Below are positions 814-45,851 of a stretch of 64,000 nucleotides of DNA, piece by piece. Within the stretch, counting starts at the first letter, position 1, and the number at the start of each line of letters is the position of its first letter. Origin of the DNA: Bacteroidetes bacterium GWB2_32_14. GTDB lineage: Bacteria > Bacteroidota > Bacteroidia > Bacteroidales > UBA12077. The stretch is taken from NCBI GenBank assembly GCA_001768235.1, contig MENK01000014.1:128977-192976 (forward strand). The letters run 5' to 3'. Below the pieces are notes generated by a model. That model saw only the letters and a program-made list of their open reading frames with translations, was not told the origin of the DNA and made no database searches. A program made the translations under genes and the position numbers.

Positions 814-2099
814 ACGTTTACGAAGCTGCAATAAAAAGAATCGAATTCATTTTTAATGAGTTCGATAACGTATTGGTTGCTTTTTCTGGGGGCAAAGACA
901 GTGGAGTATGCCTTAACCTTTGTTACGATTTTGCAAAACAAAACAATTTGCTTTTTAAATTGGCTGTGTATCACGAAGATTATGAAGCTGGTTATCCTCA
1001 CACGTTTGAATACGTTGAAAAAGAATTTGATGCTAAGTCGGACATTAAAAGATACTGGTTATGCCTTCCTATAAAAGCTGCCTGCTCAGTATCGATGCAC
1101 CAAACACATTGGATACCATGGGATGATGACGATAAAGAAATATGGGTTAGAGAAATGCCTTCAAAAGAGTATATCTATAATATTAAAAATATCTGGTTTC
1201 CTTTTGAAAAAGGTACTTCGGGCTTCGATACACGAATAATATTTGCGAATGAATTTGCAAAGAAATTTGGTAAAACTGCTGTAATTGTTGGGCTTAGGAT
1301 GGATGAAAGCCTTTCAAGGAGATCAATAATTACATCATCTATGCGGGTTAATTTTTATAAAGAAAAAAGATATTCTGTAGTCAAAGGCGAACACACTGTT
1401 AATTTTTATCCAATTTATGACTGGCGAACAGATGATATTTGGATTGCCAATTATAGATACAGATGGAATTACAACAAACTGTACGATTTATACTACATGG
1501 CGGGACTTAATGCTCCTGAAATGAGAACGGCAAGTCCATTCCATAGTGCCGGGCAAAAGCACCTCCGATTGTTCAAGGTAATATGCCCTGCCATGTGGGG
1601 TAAAATGGTCAGCCGTGTTAATGGTGTTAATTTCACTGGAATTTACGGTGGAACCACCGCAATGGGCTGGAAAAATATCAAAAAACCTCCGCATTTTACG
1701 TGGAAACAGTACATGGAATTTTTGCTGTCTACTTTGCCTGATGACATTAGGAAGAAGTTTGAAGTTAAAATAGAAAAATCAAAATGGCATTGGCGAGTCC
1801 AGGGCGGAGCAAGAAACAAGAGCTTTATCGAACATTTAGAAAAAGAAGGGGTTCCGCTAAGAAGAAGCGGGCTGAAATCTGCATCATGCAAGGTTAATAC
1901 AGATAAGGAGATAATTTACATCGATGATTGGTTTGACGACACATCGGTTGATGATTTCAAAAAAGCACCAACCTATAAAAGAGCCTGTATTGCGATAATG
2001 AAAAATGACACTCAATGCTTGTTTATGGGATTTAGCCGGACAAAACAAGATATGGAACGAAGAAAAAACATAATGGAAAAATATAAAAAACTACTATGA
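810..2099 (+). CDS. Phosphoadenosine phosphosulfate reductase family protein, DUF3440/IbrA-like
   Basis: PP-loop SGGKDS near the N-terminus, PAPS-reductase-like core and DUF3440-like C-terminal half; 4-bp overlaps on both sides. Confidence 0.8.
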   Translation: MNVYEAAIKRIEFIFNEFDNVLVAFSGGKDSGVCLNLCYDFAKQNNLLFKLAVYHEDYEAGYPHTFEYVEKEFDAKSDIKRYWLCLPIKAACSVSMHQTHWIPWDDDDKEIWVREMPSKEYIYNIKNIWFPFEKGTSGFDTRIIFANEFAKKFGKTAVIVGLRMDESLSRRSIITSSMRVNFYKEKRYSVVKGEHTVNFYPIYDWRTDDIWIANYRYRWNYNKLYDLYYMAGLNAPEMRTASPFHSAGQKHLRLFKVICPAMWGKMVSRVNGVNFTGIYGGTTAMGWKNIKKPPHFTWKQYMEFLLSTLPDDIRKKFEVKIEKSKWHWRVQGGARNKSFIEHLEKEGVPLRRSGLKSASCKVNTDKEIIYIDDWFDDTSVDDFKKAPTYKRACIAIMKNDTQCLFMGFSRTKQDMERRKNIMEKYKKLL

Positions 2100-2752
2100 A
2101 TACTTTTGAAGAATTTGAAAAAGGAATGAAGATAAGAGAACTTATTTCAGACCTGGTCGAAGAGATTGACGAACTTGCGGATATTGATGAAAAAATAGAC
2201 GTTCTCAATTATGTACGTAAAATGCTTCACGATGTTAGTCCGCTAAAGCATCACCCCGTTGACTATGTTATGTGGGAAAAATCAGACAATGTGGAATGCA
2301 ACGACTATAACCCAAACGCAGTTGCACCCCCTGAATTTAAATTACTTACTACGTCCATTATAGAAGATGGGTTTACGATGCCAATATATACTAATCCTGA
2401 AAATAGTCATAAAACTATAATTGATGGGTTTCATAGACGAAAAGCAGAAAAGAGCAATAAAAACATTAGCGATTCAACGTTTAATCGAATTCCTATTACA
2501 TTATCCAGAGAAGATAAACGCGATGTTTCAAACCGCATGGCATCAACTATACGTCACAATCGGGCACGTGGCAGCCACGATATTGATTTAATGGTAAATA
2601 TTATTAGTGAACTTACCAAAAGTGGAATGAGCGATGCGTGGATTATTAGACACATAGGCATGGATGCAGACGAATTGCTCAGGTTAAAACAAATATCAGG
2701 TTTGGCAGAGCTATTTAAGGATAAAGAATTTTCAAACTCAAAAGAAATATAA
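2096..2752 (+). CDS. ParB/Srx-fold nuclease-like protein, IbrB-like
   Basis: ParB-like motifs DGFHRRKAE and ASTIRHNRARGSH; sits directly downstream of the IbrA-like gene. Confidence 0.75.
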   Translation: MNTFEEFEKGMKIRELISDLVEEIDELADIDEKIDVLNYVRKMLHDVSPLKHHPVDYVMWEKSDNVECNDYNPNAVAPPEFKLLTTSIIEDGFTMPIYTNPENSHKTIIDGFHRRKAEKSNKNISDSTFNRIPITLSREDKRDVSNRMASTIRHNRARGSHDIDLMVNIISELTKSGMSDAWIIRHIGMDADELLRLKQISGLAELFKDKEFSNSKEI

Positions 2753-2753
2753 A

Positions 2754-3038
2754 ATGGAAACAGAAGAAAAATACAAAGAAGCAAGGCGCATGTTGTGCCA
2801 ATACTTACGAAAACTAGCAGCCGAAAAAGGAATAACACATGCAGAAATTGCCGAAAAAACAGGATTCTCGGCAAATAATGTTTCACGCATGTTAATGGGC
2901 AGATACCCGCCCACGCTCGATAGTTTTATTAAATTAGCCGAAGCCGTTAATACATTCTTTTTTGTTATAGACAAAGAAGCCAACGACGACCTGGTAGAAA
3001 CAATGAAAAACAGGTGGGGAAAAATTGAAAATAATTAA
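2754..3038 (+). CDS. XRE-type helix-turn-helix protein
   Basis: HTH signature ITHAEIAEKTGFSANNVSRMLMGRYPPTLDSFIKLAEAV. Confidence 0.75.
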   Translation: METEEKYKEARRMLCQYLRKLAAEKGITHAEIAEKTGFSANNVSRMLMGRYPPTLDSFIKLAEAVNTFFFVIDKEANDDLVETMKNRWGKIENN

Positions 3039-4186
3039 ATTTTAAAATCATTAAAAACTTCCATTTCTTTTTCAACATCTTCGCCCAGCACGTGCGCGTA
3101 TATCATAGTTTCGCTTATGTTGGTATGGCCGAGAAGCTTTTGCAATACCGCAATGTTTTTTGTTTTACGCAAGAAAAGAGTTGCAAAAGTATGCCTGGCG
3201 CTATGCGAAGATATTTCCTTATCAATACCAGCAGCGGTTGCAATCTTTTTTAAATGGCGGTTTGTTACCTGGTCGGAATAAGTATCGAAAATAAAACCAA
3301 CCGTCCGCAATGGAGCTGCATTTTTAATTAATATTAATGCCGGTTCTTTTAACGGGATCTTAATTACTTTCGATTTTGTCTTATAAGCATGAAATACAAG
3401 GGTATTATTAACAATATCGTCGTGTGTAATTCTTTTCAGGTCGCTCACGCGTAGGCCCGTGAAACAGGCAAACAAATAATACCTTAATACCCGTTGGTGG
3501 TTTGGTGTAAGTGTGTTTTTGCGGTATAACTCAATTAACTTATCGAGCTCTTCCGGATCAAGATAAATACGATCGGGATTTATGCGTTTAATTTTAATGT
3601 GATCAAACGGGTTTTCTGTTATAATCTTTTTGCGAATGGCAATATTAATGTACGATTTAAACACGGCCATATTTTTCTGTATCGTGTTTTCTTTATTATC
3701 AAGCCTGAGTTTAAGATACTTTTTATAATCATTAATCATCTCCACGGAGATCTCGCTAAACATGAGTTGTTTTTTATATAACTTTAATTTATTTAGTACC
3801 GATTCGTGCATGGCGATGGTGTTTGGCGAAAGAATTCCTTTTTGTTCCAGGATTGTTTTTTCCACGAAGTCGTAAAAGTCGATGTAAGTAGATGGAATTT
3901 TATATTCCTTCCGGAGCAGATCAGGAGTAAGCTCTTTCCCTTGCAACCGGTAACGAACAAAAGCATCGGTAATTCGCTTTTTGCAATTGTCGATAATCAG
4001 GTTATCGTCTTTAACCGTTTTCGAAGTACCCTTAATTCTTTTTTTAATGGGATCCCAATTATCTGGATTAACCGAAACACCCGTATTAAAACGTACCTTC
4101 TCGTTCATCAGGTGAGTGTAAATGTACACCGCAGATGTTTTGTCTGATTTCTGGTAATCTTTTAAGTAAACAGTAAGTTTATTCAT
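3035..4186 (-). CDS. Tyrosine-type site-specific integrase
   Basis: Catalytic motifs TGLRVSDL (R), HSARHTFA (HxxR), LLGHTN (H) and MIYAHV (Y); adjacent to a tRNA gene. Confidence 0.93.
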   Translation of the reverse strand: MNKLTVYLKDYQKSDKTSAVYIYTHLMNEKVRFNTGVSVNPDNWDPIKKRIKGTSKTVKDDNLIIDNCKKRITDAFVRYRLQGKELTPDLLRKEYKIPSTYIDFYDFVEKTILEQKGILSPNTIAMHESVLNKLKLYKKQLMFSEISVEMINDYKKYLKLRLDNKENTIQKNMAVFKSYINIAIRKKIITENPFDHIKIKRINPDRIYLDPEELDKLIELYRKNTLTPNHQRVLRYYLFACFTGLRVSDLKRITHDDIVNNTLVFHAYKTKSKVIKIPLKEPALILIKNAAPLRTVGFIFDTYSDQVTNRHLKKIATAAGIDKEISSHSARHTFATLFLRKTKNIAVLQKLLGHTNISETMIYAHVLGEDVEKEMEVFNDFKI

Positions 4187-4283
4187 AGCAAAAAGTTTAA
4201 GTCGTTTTTGGGACGGATTTTAACACTTTTTCGAAAAACTCACATAATCCAGGCGATATTGAAAGCCATACTACGCGAAAAGG

Positions 4284-4317
4284 AAAAAGCCGCCCATTAA
4301 AAGATGGCGGCTTTTTT
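4284..4317. terminator. Rho-independent-like hairpin
   Basis: AAAAAGCCGCC-CATTAAAAGAT-GGCGGCTTTTTT immediately downstream of tRNA-Phe. Confidence 0.7.
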
Positions 4318-4318
4318 G

Positions 4319-4391
<73 letters not shown>

Positions 4392-4545
4392 GAATGCTCA
4401 TTGGCGGTTGCAAATATAATTGAAAAAATTCGTTTACAAAATATTTTTACTCAATTTTTAAAAAATCTCAAAAACTCACTTTAACGATCTATTTATTAGT
4501 TTGATGTATAGAATTTTATATTTTTGCTCTCATATATAATTTAAA

Positions 4546-5766
4546 ATGAATTATCAAAGTTTTACTCTCAATAACGGGATACGCATAATACATTTACATA
4601 CTTTATCGCATGTTGCACATTGCGGTTTACTCATTAATGCAGGTTCGCGCGATGAGCACGAACATGAACATGGCATGGCTCACTTTATTGAACACGCCAT
4701 ATTTAAAGGTACAAAAAAACGTAAAGCATATCATATTCTCAGTCGTATGGAAGATGTCGGAGGCGAAATTAATGCTTATACTTCAAAAGAAGAGACAGCT
4801 ATACATACTTCATTCTTAAAAAACGATTACGAACGGGCTATAGAGCTCATTTGGGATATCACTTTTAACTCTGTATTTCCACAAAAAGAAATTGACCGCG
4901 AAAAAGAAGTCATTATTGAAGAAATAAAATCCTATAAAGACGACCCTGCAGAGCTTATTTTTGATGAATTCGAAGAACTGGTATTCAGAAACCAGCCATT
5001 GGGTAAAAATATCCTGGGAAATCCTAAAGATTTAAGAAGATTTACCAAAAATGATGTCGAATCGTTTATTAAAAACAATTACCACACTAACGAGATGGTA
5101 CTTTGTTCAATTGGTAACATTTCGTTCGAAAAGTTTAAGAAACTTGCCGAAAAATATTTTGGCCAAATAGCATCAAATCCACGAACAAAAAAACGTGCAT
5201 TAATCAACAATTATTTACCCGAAATAAAAACCCTGCACAAAAAAACACATCAAACACACTTTATTATTGGTAACCTGGCATACAATGTTCACGATCCCAA
5301 AAAGGTCGGACTTACTTTACTCGACAACATGCTTGGTGGCCCGGGATTAAATTCACGTTTAAGTCTCGTTCTTCGTGAAAAATACGGTTATGTTTATTAT
5401 ATTGAATCAAACTATACTCCCTATAGTGATACAGGTATTTTCTCTATTTATTTTGGAACCGATAAAAACAATGTTGATAAAAGCTTATCGCTTGTAAAGA
5501 AAGAGTTTGATTTACTTCGAAATAAAAAGTTGGGAATTGTACAACTTAGAAAAGCAAAAAAACAGATATTTGGCCAGATTGCAATTAATTCGGAAAATAG
5601 CGCCAACCTGATGTTGTCTATGGGTAAAAGCTTTTTGCTTTTTAACAAAGTAGATAGCCTGGAAGAGATTCGAACAAAAATTGAGTCAATAACCATTGAT
5701 GATATTCAGAAAATAGCAAACGAAATCCTGGATATTGACAACATGTCGATGTTAATTTATAAATAA
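4546..5766 (+). CDS. M16 family zinc peptidase (insulinase/processing-peptidase-like)
   Basis: HFIEH inverted zinc motif and downstream glutamate region typical of M16. Confidence 0.9.
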   Translation: MNYQSFTLNNGIRIIHLHTLSHVAHCGLLINAGSRDEHEHEHGMAHFIEHAIFKGTKKRKAYHILSRMEDVGGEINAYTSKEETAIHTSFLKNDYERAIELIWDITFNSVFPQKEIDREKEVIIEEIKSYKDDPAELIFDEFEELVFRNQPLGKNILGNPKDLRRFTKNDVESFIKNNYHTNEMVLCSIGNISFEKFKKLAEKYFGQIASNPRTKKRALINNYLPEIKTLHKKTHQTHFIIGNLAYNVHDPKKVGLTLLDNMLGGPGLNSRLSLVLREKYGYVYYIESNYTPYSDTGIFSIYFGTDKNNVDKSLSLVKKEFDLLRNKKLGIVQLRKAKKQIFGQIAINSENSANLMLSMGKSFLLFNKVDSLEEIRTKIESITIDDIQKIANEILDIDNMSMLIYK

Positions 5767-42477: not shown

Positions 42478-42753
42478 TTATTGCTTTAATAATTCAATCA
42501 GTCCATTGAATAATGTTGTTCCAATTTGAATTCCATTTTTCATAAAGAAATCTTTTAATTTATGTGATGATTTATCTTTTGATGTTATAATTTCATTTAG
42601 TTCCTTTTTTTGAGTCTCACTTAATGAAGATATTGCATTTTCAAAATTTCTGAGTGTCGTTTTATCTTCAAATGATAGTTTCAATGATTTCAAAACTCCT
42701 TCAATATTTACATTTTGAATGTTCTGGGTTTTTGCATTAAATATTAGTTTCAT
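42478..42753 (-). CDS. Uncharacterised 91-aa protein coupled to the Roco GTPase
   Basis: ATGA overlap with upstream Roco gene; no recognised family; hydrophobic C-terminal segment NGIQIGTTLFNGLIELLKQ. Confidence 0.75.
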   Translation of the reverse strand: MKLIFNAKTQNIQNVNIEGVLKSLKLSFEDKTTLRNFENAISSLSETQKKELNEIITSKDKSSHKLKDFFMKNGIQIGTTLFNGLIELLKQ

Positions 42754-44912
42754 AGGTTATAATTAGTTTCATTATTAATTATTGTGATATTTTGTGTTTC
42801 AGAATTGAATTGTATTGAATTCTTGGAATACAAACCAAGTAGTTTCGGGATGTCTACCTCGATTGCACTAATATTGCAAGTAATAACTCCTTTCCCTTTC
42901 TTTTGAAAGTTTATAATTTGTGAATAAGAAAATAGGGATGGATTTGAAGATTTACTACATTCTTTACATATACATGGTATTTTAAGGTCGTTAGTGGGGT
43001 TATTAAGAGATATATGTATTTTATCTATTTCGTGAATAATAATGTTTAATAAATGGTTTACATTGTCACCATTTAAATAAATGGTGATTTTTCTCTCAAA
43101 AGGCTGAGATATTACAATACCCTTTGTTTCTTCAATTACTCTATATTTTTCTTCTCCGTATTTTTGATTAGGAATTTTCTCCGTCACTGTTTTTTGCAAC
43201 TCAAAACCATCTTTCCAAATCTTTCTTGTATTAACAAGATGTTGAAGTTTTACCATAAGCCTGGTTACTATTCCTGATGGCATGAATGGGTATTCAATTA
43301 CAAATCTTTTATATCCATTGAATGAAGATTTTGAAAATGGAGAATTTACTGACAGCAATTCCGGGACAACATATTTATTATCTCCAATACCAAATATTAT
43401 TTCAAATTTTTTCATTAGTTCAATGAAATATTTGTAATGTTCTTCTTTATATTCTTGCCACACTTTTGAAAGGTCTGCACTAGAAAATATACCATAATTT
43501 TCTTGAATGAATTTTGTGTCAATCAACTTGTAGACAGCTTCTGTAGCCCAATCAGGATTGACAAATATTAAATCCTTAAGAATATCGTGCTCCTTAAAAT
43601 GCAAAAAGACTCCAAGGTCATGATAGTATTCACTGAGAAATAAGGCACTAGATTTATTTAATCCATTTTTTTCGCAAATTTGGATGTAATGCGATATGCT
43701 TAAGTAATTATAATTTTCTTTCTCAAGATATTTTCTTATGTCAATCCATTTTTTTGGCAAATAATCTCCTATGTGGTCTAGTTTTTCAATTTCATTAGTA
43801 ATAGCTTTTATAAGTTCTTTAACACCTTCTCCAGTTTTTGCGCTTACCTTGTGAAAGCCTTTTATATTTTTGAAGGTGGTTTTTAACGTTGCTTCATCAA
43901 TGTTTTTATATCTCTCATCGCTTTTATTACATACGATTAATATTGGAGAATCTTTCCCAAGTAGCGATATAACATTCAACCAATAGTCAAATTGAACGTT
44001 TAAATCATCTCTTCGAGCTTCCCATACAAAAATGTATATAGACCTACGAGTCAAAAAAAATTGATGAGTAGAATGGTATATTTCCTGCCCCCCAAAATCC
44101 CATAAATTCAATTTTATTTCAGTTGAATTATTACTTATCAAAGTCATAGAATCAATATCAATACCTTCTGTGCTAACTTGATTTTCATCAATTTTGTACT
44201 CAAAATCTTTCAATTTTTTTAACAAGCATGTTTTTCCAACAGCTCCTTCACCAACTGTTAATAGCTTCGCCTCAAACAACTGAACTTTTTCATCAGTAGA
44301 TAATTCTTTCAAATAAGTTATAATCGCTTTACTACCTTTGGAGAAAATTTCTAAAGGAATATTTGAAATATTATTTCCTTCGTATAGAATGAATGAGAGA
44401 CCTTTTGCATTCCCTAATTCTGTTGGTAATAATTTAATATTATTATTTAAAATAAATAGTGTCTTAATATTTGTTAGATTTCCAAAATTCAGAGGTAAAG
44501 AATTCAATTTATTATTACAAATATAAAGATGTTCAAGTGATTTTAATCTTCCGAATTCAGATGGCAATTCCTCAATTAAATTATTATCTAAATATAAAAA
44601 TTTTAGTCTTTTTAGGTTTTCTATGTTTTTGGGAATAGTTTCAATGAAATTATTAGATAAATAAATTGTTTCCAATTTTTCCAATTCAAATAGTTCAACT
44701 GGGAGTGATTTAATTTGGTTATTCCCTAAATCTAATACTTTCAAATTTTGCAAACGATTTATGCTTGGGGGAATTTCCGTAATGTTATTTGAGTTAAGAA
44801 ATAGGTATTCAATATTGGTACTTTCAAATAATTCTTCAGGAAATACATTTAGTCCTTTTCCCCAATAACTTATTGTTTTATTTAATGATTGTATACTATT
44901 GTTGTTATTCAT
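42750..44912 (-). CDS. Leucine-rich-repeat Roc-COR (Roco) family GTPase
   Basis: About seven LRRs, Roc GTPase motifs GEGAVGKTCLLKKL / WDFGGQEIYHSTHQFFL / CNKSD, COR-like region, C-terminal CxCxxC...C segment. Confidence 0.93.
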   Translation of the reverse strand: MNNNNSIQSLNKTISYWGKGLNVFPEELFESTNIEYLFLNSNNITEIPPSINRLQNLKVLDLGNNQIKSLPVELFELEKLETIYLSNNFIETIPKNIENLKRLKFLYLDNNLIEELPSEFGRLKSLEHLYICNNKLNSLPLNFGNLTNIKTLFILNNNIKLLPTELGNAKGLSFILYEGNNISNIPLEIFSKGSKAIITYLKELSTDEKVQLFEAKLLTVGEGAVGKTCLLKKLKDFEYKIDENQVSTEGIDIDSMTLISNNSTEIKLNLWDFGGQEIYHSTHQFFLTRRSIYIFVWEARRDDLNVQFDYWLNVISLLGKDSPILIVCNKSDERYKNIDEATLKTTFKNIKGFHKVSAKTGEGVKELIKAITNEIEKLDHIGDYLPKKWIDIRKYLEKENYNYLSISHYIQICEKNGLNKSSALFLSEYYHDLGVFLHFKEHDILKDLIFVNPDWATEAVYKLIDTKFIQENYGIFSSADLSKVWQEYKEEHYKYFIELMKKFEIIFGIGDNKYVVPELLSVNSPFSKSSFNGYKRFVIEYPFMPSGIVTRLMVKLQHLVNTRKIWKDGFELQKTVTEKIPNQKYGEEKYRVIEETKGIVISQPFERKITIYLNGDNVNHLLNIIIHEIDKIHISLNNPTNDLKIPCICKECSKSSNPSLFSYSQIINFQKKGKGVITCNISAIEVDIPKLLGLYSKNSIQFNSETQNITIINNETNYNL

Positions 44913-45068
44913 TAATTGTCAATTCTATAAGTTACATAAACTAACATAAACGTATATTTTGAAGCAGGTTAAAATTTACCACAACTAATAAATAAACCTG
45001 AATATAATGGTTCAAAGTTAATCTAATACATCTATTTTAAAAACACTGTACGGATTTCTATTTTGATA

Positions 45069-45851
45069 TTATTTTTGATCGGCATATCTCCACCAGGTTA
45101 TTGTGCCAAGGAACCCGGCCAGGCTGGTTATAATCACGATAAGGTAACTCCCGTAAAACAATTCCATTCCTTCTGTTCCTTCAGGCACTGAAAGCACACC
45201 CGGAACAGCCCACGGGAAATACGGCCCAAGACCCACTAAGGCAATAAATTGGGACATTATAAGCATAAGTATTACAAATGCTAACGCTGCTATTATACCT
45301 CTGCCATAACTTGCAATGAAAGCTACAGGGCTACTTAGCAATATGGTTAAACCTGAAATCAGAATGTATTTAGAAAAAAATTGTGAAAATAACTGATCAG
45401 ACCAACCTGGAATACCAATTAAATATCCGATAGAAATTCCTGCCACTAATATAATCAGCACCAATAATAAACACCATAAAACAACAATGCTAAACTTAGC
45501 AGTTACAATCGCTGTACGAGATACAGGCAAGCAAAGAATATTTGTAATAGTCCGGTCGATATATTCGCGACCAAAAACCCAGCTTGTTACAAAACCGAAT
45601 CCGATAAGTCCAATAGTAGCTACTAACTGATTCAGCATCGTTAAATACCCTTCCCAGTTATTTTCGCCAAATAGTTTGGCTTTTGCTCCAACCAGTCCTA
45701 GTTTTTCTCCAATTTCCGGATGTTGAGCTACAAGCATTAACAACCCCATCATCAGAGGAACGAAAATAAAAAAGACAATGGTAATCCAAAATATTTTCGA
45801 CCTGCGTAATTTCATGCATTCGGTAACTAAAGCTGCTGTAAAATTTTTCAT
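45069..45851 (-). CDS. ABC-2 type transporter permease
   Basis: Six-TM ABC-2 pattern; start overlaps the end of ABC ATPase. Confidence 0.85.
   Translation of the reverse strand: MKNFTAALVTECMKLRRSKIFWITIVFFIFVPLMMGLLMLVAQHPEIGEKLGLVGAKAKLFGENNWEGYLTMLNQLVATIGLIGFGFVTSWVFGREYIDRTITNILCLPVSRTAIVTAKFSIVVLWCLLLVLIILVAGISIGYLIGIPGWSDQLFSQFFSKYILISGLTILLSSPVAFIASYGRGIIAALAFVILMLIMSQFIALVGLGPYFPWAVPGVLSVPEGTEGMELFYGSYLIVIITSLAGFLGTITWWRYADQK

Follow-up and report, generated by a model that had tools for sequence, protein, structure and literature searches.

A Roco gene and a small gene lie next to each other on the minus strand of the window, that is, the whole stretch of 64,000 nucleotides of Bacteroidetes bacterium GWB2_32_14 analyzed here. 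Both open reading frames and their ATGA overlap lie where the original prediction had placed them, and the overlap of the two genes likely reflects translational coupling. Their features are as follows, with the evidence for each in brackets.

42750..44912, minus strand: Roco gene, LRR-Roc-COR GTPase of 720 aa, P0001 (Pfam domains and structure alignment)
44343..44816, minus strand: leucine-rich repeats, putative sensor, approx. aa 33-190 (Pfam LRR_8/LRR_4/LRR_14)
43785..44267, minus strand: Roc GTPase domain, approx. aa 216-376 (Pfam Roc 8.7e-27, Ras 4.2e-19; alignment A3)
43353..43757, minus strand: COR-A domain, aa 386-520 (Pfam COR-A 1.3e-39)
42837..43307, minus strand: COR-B domain, aa 536-692 (Pfam COR-B 7.3e-23)
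42768..42809, minus strand: Roco C-terminal candidate coupling motif FNSETQNITIINNE at aa 702-715, within the variable tail that follows COR-B (motif alignment; homologues diverge here)
42750..42753, minus strand: ATGA stop/start overlap of the Roco gene and the small ORF (ORF coordinates)
42478..42753, minus strand: small partner gene of 91 aa, P0002 (ORF; homologous to small ORFs after the L019 and L058 Rocos)
42700..42741, minus strand: N-terminal candidate coupling motif of P0002, FNAKTQNIQNVNIE, aa 5-18 (motif alignment; predicted disordered)
42484..42705, minus strand: P0002 helical domain, putative effector, aa 17-90, five predicted helices (AlphaFold2)

P0001 is a member of the Roco (LRR-Roc-COR) family, and its earlier annotation was correct. 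Indeed, LRR, Roc, COR-A, and COR-B are all matched in Pfam far above the cut-offs (LRR_8 at 9.9e-23, the others as listed), the protein aligns with the structures of LRRK2 and of the Chlorobium tepidum Roco, the latter over residues 32-575, and its GTP-binding motifs (the P-loop GEGAVGKT, WDFGGQE, NKSD, and SAK) are all intact and conserved in alignment A3. XopAC/XopAE and other effector names returned by NCBIfam for this region reflect the LRRs and lie far below cut-off. COR-B ends at residue 692, beyond which Roco homologues are wholly divergent in alignment A3, and the 28-residue tail that follows contains no Pfam EAD. By COR-A count, P0001 is the one Roco found in the source genome; within the phylum, Roco genes are likewise rare, occurring in 17 of 396 genomes. 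COR-A matches also gave tandem, near-identical Rocos (L161 and L167) on contig C301 of the Bacteroidales genome G1033, together with contig C664; G1033 has ten COR-A matches in all, and these tandem genes suggest a recent Roco expansion there.

The Roco gene and the small gene have a GC content of 24-31%, against mostly 34-40% in the flanking genes. In a genome of the same genus (G006), the neighboring ABC genes are kept at about 80% DNA identity and no Roco is present there; the AT-rich segment at 42750-45069 of the window is absent from the matching place, synteny being lost where the ABC-permease gene ends. Since a same-genus relative has the syntenic ABC genes and lacks a Roco beside them, the pair looks acquired. 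No specific defense-system match was obtained with PADLOC among ten neighbors, and a defense island was rejected, the nearby PADLOC matches being generic ABC ATPase and methyltransferase similarities.

P0002 belongs to a family of which three sequences are available, the two others being encoded after the Rocos of an Ignavibacteria locus (L019) and a Lacihabitans locus (L058). A profile of those two proteins gives 17.2 bits with the helical part of P0002, against a best score of 12.1 bits in 5000 shuffled controls, and P0002 compares pairwise with both at p ≤ 2e-4. Lack of conservation of the small ORF, which would have spoken against the original prediction, was thus not what we found, as diverged homologues follow other Rocos in what is a rare family. 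No significant relative of P0002 was retrieved from 396 phylum, 25 family, and 395 class genomes, no direct sequence homologue from the plasmids or phages searched, and no significant new member by profile A1 from phylum genomes, L058-family genomes, or viral contigs. Weak matches (L098-L105, E 0.002-0.01) are internal to longer ORFs and were set aside. Profile comparison gave no support for common ancestry with the cyanobacterial domain A2 or with the helical tail fused to the Roco of L022; of the viral matches to the L022 tail (L212 and L213), L212 is a chance match to a homing-endonuclease-like ORF.

AlphaFold2 predicts five helices for P0002 (mean pLDDT 72) and disorder in the motif-bearing N-terminus (pLDDT below 50 at aa 1-14); for the L058 partner, it predicts four helices with a pLDDT of about 90 and a disordered motif at aa 1-21. 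Neither model has a fold match in PDB or among viral structures. No known domain of Pfam, NCBIfam, or PADLOC is found in P0002 above cut-off, a PADLOC match to RT_UG23 at 0.0048 being judged chance, and the domain searches revealed no enzymatic or toxic feature. The small protein had been thought to end in a hydrophobic segment, as a membrane-active effector might. The segment is present but weak, its mean Kyte-Doolittle hydropathy of 0.68 over 19 residues being far from that of a transmembrane segment. Because no stretch of P0002 reaches the hydropathy needed for a transmembrane helix, the membrane-active idea, for which there is no fold match either, is unsupported and a transmembrane effector was rejected; P0002 may still act on membranes in an amphipathic manner.

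The end of the Roco and the start of P0002 resemble each other. The tail FNSETQNITIINNE-TNYNL and the start MKLI-FNAKTQNIQNVNIE are identical at 8 of 14 residues (FNxxTQNIxxxNxE), as alignment confirms, and at 64% of positions at the DNA level; for five of the 8 residues in common the codons differ, each time at the third base, again as first reported. With 60-aa windows, 0.6% of mismatched Roco/ORF pairs score as high as the cognate pair (41), and the window pair ranks fifth among 30 Roco/downstream-ORF pairs; in all pairs ranked above it (L019, L058, L095, and L048), the Roco tail matches its own downstream partner. With 100-aa windows and 59 pairs, the score is reached by 2.3% of mismatched pairs, a null inflated by genuine homologues. 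When the last 24 residues are compared with the first 24, composition-preserving shuffles give p 2.5e-4 for the window pair, and none of 1273 other ORFs matches its score. By itself, this match is modest and suggestive: chance is unlikely, yet the case is not overwhelming. What makes the sharing convincing is that homologous Roco/partner pairs show likewise matching motifs.

These were sought in 80 Roco loci and further COR-A matches, from which tails and downstream ORFs were extracted. The Roco tail and the partner read INIDNSLVNFADSI and INIKDSQVNFADKI in L019, GDIFIRESNVSFNEN and GNINIKNSTVNFNEN in L058, and NGSAQIHQQNQGEGQFN and NGSTQIHQQNEGEANFN in L095, a cyanobacterial locus from Crocosphaera. 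A wider scan gave L206/L214 and L188/L215, with cyanobacterial partners, in which the Roco tail is QYGDGDNFVGDQVGHDK or HQHGERDNFGGDQVGRDK and the small protein starts with MATNIHQYGSGDNIAGDKVMGDKIG; the matching motif of L214 and L215 is QYGDGDNFVGDQV..DK in the Roco and QYGSGDNIAGDKVMGDK in the partner. In these two loci, the Roco gene is followed by a DUF6883 gene that overlaps its stop codon by ATGA (and in L215 by a DUF4926 gene), and then by the gene of the motif-bearing small protein (coordinates 2517-2852 and 3097-3447 in L214; 1890-2458 and 2470-2841 in L215). Motifs vary between loci, and each is common to the tail of a given Roco and its own small partner. When the members of five unrelated pairs are permuted in all 120 ways, the cognate assignment has the best score, and in end-to-end shuffles the four pairs other than that of the window reach p 5e-5 to 2e-4. 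A lack of shared motifs in homologous operons, which would have told against the original prediction, was therefore not what we found: L019, L058, L095, L214, and L215 each have a motif shared by Roco and partner, and the notion of a two-gene unit joined by a shared short motif is supported by a motif that tracks its partner from locus to locus.

The two motif copies are 76% identical in DNA in L095; for the pairs of the window, L019, and L058, the figure is 58-65%, and different codons specify most of the identical residues in L058 and in the window. In a neutral-divergence test on four pairs (window, L019, L058, and L095), amino-acid identity is above neutral in each, and the pooled 47 identical residues exceed a neutral mean of 28.9 and a maximum of 38 in 2000 simulations, an excess biased upward because similarity at the protein level had guided the choice of motifs. 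The test lends support, not proof, to the earlier argument for protein-level constraint over DNA duplication.

Examination of other Roco loci indicates that the motif and the partner domain are, at the sequence level, separable modules. In L214 and L215, the small proteins are identical over their first 30 residues (30/30); their remainders, both helical domains, are unrelated (score 25, p 0.53) and on inspection look like domains that other Rocos carry as fusions (L086/L096/L192 and L190/L191/L193). The partner domain detached in L095 is fused to the Roco C-terminus in L083, L074, L047, L035, and L041; for the P0002 domain, no such fusion was found, other domains being involved in these cases. 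Furthermore, in the Bacteroidales locus L136/L218, the Roco (1024-3786) ends in a Pfam EAD1 (1.9e-8) and the adjoining gene (3847-5132) encodes an EAD1-CHAT protein, caspase-like (EAD1 1.0e-11, CHAT 1.5e-11), which, judging from these domain matches, is a Pfam-certified, folded-domain version of the same homotypic coupling. Taken together, the fused, EAD1, and short-motif cases imply that what follows COR-B can be a domain fused to the Roco, a homotypic domain that is folded, or a short motif, likewise homotypic, matched by a detached partner.

Almost nothing is known about the function of bacterial Roco proteins (PMC6337361). Kaur et al. 2021 (PMC8195603) proposed that LRR-AP-GTPase-COR proteins are switches that sense invaders and that carry, at the C-terminus, one of at least 24 alternative effectors or EADs, the latter linking core and effector by homotypic contact (PMC7159879). 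Judged by that description, the window pair shares with these systems the LRR, Roc, and COR core, the C-terminal place, and a probable homotypic link to a neighboring candidate effector, since its motif, as in AP-GTPase/EAD systems, has a second copy on the adjoining partner. It differs in that the motif, of about 14 residues, is too short for an EAD and has no Pfam EAD match, and in that the partner is small, has no fold match, and is not a known enzyme. Because it occupies the place of an EAD, the motif would be EAD-like in its working without being an EAD. The L136/L218 locus offers the same homotypic C-terminal/N-terminal coupling in adjacent genes, there with a folded EAD1 and a recognizable CHAT protease domain. 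The Chlorobium tepidum Roco (PDB 6hlu and 8r4b; PMC11052575) has the LRR-Roc-COR architecture, matched over the residues given above, and differs in that the available part of that source reports no partner protein or coupling motif.

The second likeness is to BASS, of which motifs 1-10 connect Bell-domain effectors with NLRs (Dyrka et al. 2020, as related in PMC12261475 and PMC8086366). From these accounts, BASS pairs have a short polar, beta-branched motif in receptor and adjacent effector, a small helical effector, and many unrelated motif families, each pair being self-matching and co-varying, all of which recalls the Roco pairs. BASS is defined (PMC12261475) by an NLR receptor and by a motif at the receptor N-terminus and effector C-terminus. 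The window receptor, in contrast, is a Roco GTPase (Roc) and not an NLR/STAND NTPase, and its motif lies at the receptor C-terminus (aa 702-715 of 720) and the partner N-terminus (aa 5-18); the effector of BASS is a Bell (HeLo/MLKL-like) domain; the window-type partners have four or five predicted helices and no fold match, and no Bell homology emerged from the fold comparisons. The analogy first drawn, with the termini swapped, was fair and the reversal of motif placement is confirmed; as both defining features fail, the pair should not be classed as BASS. In the literature searched, no paper was found that joins Roco proteins to short-motif or amyloid signaling.

On these grounds, the pair is best read as a variant of both AP-GTPase/EAD conflict systems and BASS with the motif termini reversed, and its sequence features place it within the AP-GTPase conflict class, a putative short motif replacing the EAD. 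We favor, with a probability of about 0.6, a two-gene receptor-partner unit of this class in which a short recruitment motif fills the C-terminal effector place of the Roco and a separate helical partner carries the motif. Weighing against it are the modest match of the window pair itself, the rarity of P0002 relatives, the absence from the searches of a fused P0002 domain, of a toxic or enzymatic feature, and of a fold match, and the isolated position of the pair, with no specific defense-system match among ten neighbors. Motif-mediated coupling of the Roco and P0002 is in itself probable, a response to invaders is slightly favored as the role of the unit, and assembly of the motif in a beta- or amyloid-type manner is possible at somewhat less than even odds.

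A different origin of the likeness would be a footprint, left when a fused Roco-effector gene was split by tandem duplication of its linker, with young motif copies that have no binding role. Related genomes do hold fused and split forms of one domain (L083/L074 against L095), the motif sits exactly at both gene ends, and the DNA identity in L095 is high (76%), but the 58-65% of the window, L019, and L058, with mostly different codons in the window and L058, and an amino-acid identity above neutral in every pair tested, albeit with ascertainment bias, argue against it, as do the motif copies of L214/L215, which are one or two genes apart with one module on two unrelated domains; we regard this origin as quite unlikely. 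It is very improbable that two N/Q/I-rich, AT-biased termini are alike merely by composition: N, Q, I, and T abound in the two segments, the region has 24-31% GC, and 100-aa windows give p 0.023, yet the composition-preserving end-to-end shuffles (p 2.5e-4), the four further pairs, and the cognate assignment, best of 120, speak against chance.

The small protein might also be a regulator or scaffold of the Roco (an inhibitor, a GAP-like factor, or a dimer stabilizer) that docks on its tail, the output lying elsewhere. The lack of enzymatic, transmembrane, or toxic signatures in P0002, the matched stoichiometry implied by ATGA coupling, and the short tails of other Rocos with no partner found nearby would fit such a role; it is nevertheless unlikely in view of overt effectors at related loci (CHAT after EAD1, and C-termini that are TIR-like or nuclease-like by inspection) and of a class described with C-terminal effectors (PMC8195603). 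A toxin-antitoxin-like module, brought to mind by the overlap of a small gene with a larger one and by an AT-rich segment that looks acquired, is scarcely credible: no 720-aa LRR sensor GTPase is known to be an antitoxin, partners can be exchanged and in some loci are fused in cis, and domain searches gave no evidence for such a module.

Returning to the receptor-partner unit, sequence comparison suggests that an LRR sensor Roco recruits or activates the small protein by a like-to-like motif. The LRR would detect a ligand, upon which the Roc-COR GTPase cycle would alter the oligomeric state; exposed or clustered Roco tails could then pair like with like, in a beta-type manner or otherwise, with the N-terminal motif of P0002, bringing several copies together, and the gathered helical domains might act, most likely by arresting growth or killing the cell when an invader is present. 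The sensor, the GTPase, and the coupling are well supported by the sequence comparisons; sensing, GTP-driven tail exposure, beta-type templating, effector activity, toxicity, and phage defense are what we infer from them. More speculatively, and with odds that we put below those of beta-type assembly itself, LRRK2-like Roco receptors widespread in bacteria could signal to detached helical effectors by templated short beta motifs placed at the termini opposite to those of NLR/BASS, the motifs diversifying pairwise for insulation and acting as plug-in modules movable to new effector domains.

Bacterial Roco structures serve as models of LRRK2, the Parkinson's disease protein of which P0001 is a bacterial relative. 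A cognate partner bearing the motif of the Roco tail would allow the LRR as input, Roc-COR as switch, and the small protein as output to be tested separately, and the five naturally insulated motif pairs and the natural module swap of L214/L215 could be used for specificity studies. If the proposal is true, short-motif and possibly amyloid-type signaling extends from NLRs to a GTPase receptor.

Other Roco tails deserve mention in their own right. Two Rocos, L216 (80-2377, minus strand) and L217 (1120-2196, minus strand), have N/G-rich, beta-like tails (NITNNYISIKGDDNIIGQNV and QIANKIYNINKIEGGAKFE), with no motif-matched small partner in the stretch read, L216 ending at a contig edge. By inspection, the C-termini of L014 and L021 resemble DUF4062, a TIR-like NADase (FLASSSELR / FLASGKDM... 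pattern). A domain of about 180 aa, shared by the C-termini of the Bacteroidota Rocos L017, L020, L023, L024, L026, L029, L067, L161, and L167, resembles, again by inspection, a PD-(D/E)XK nuclease (GELDIMI...IIEC pattern). In L048 (Leptolyngbyaceae), the Roco tail (end at 5186) shares a longer, helical, coiled-coil-like EW-x-LRN...FELE segment with the 180-aa protein encoded downstream (ORF at 5206), and a third copy is present in an upstream 57-aa ORF; this repeated segment is possibly an undescribed EAD-like helical domain.
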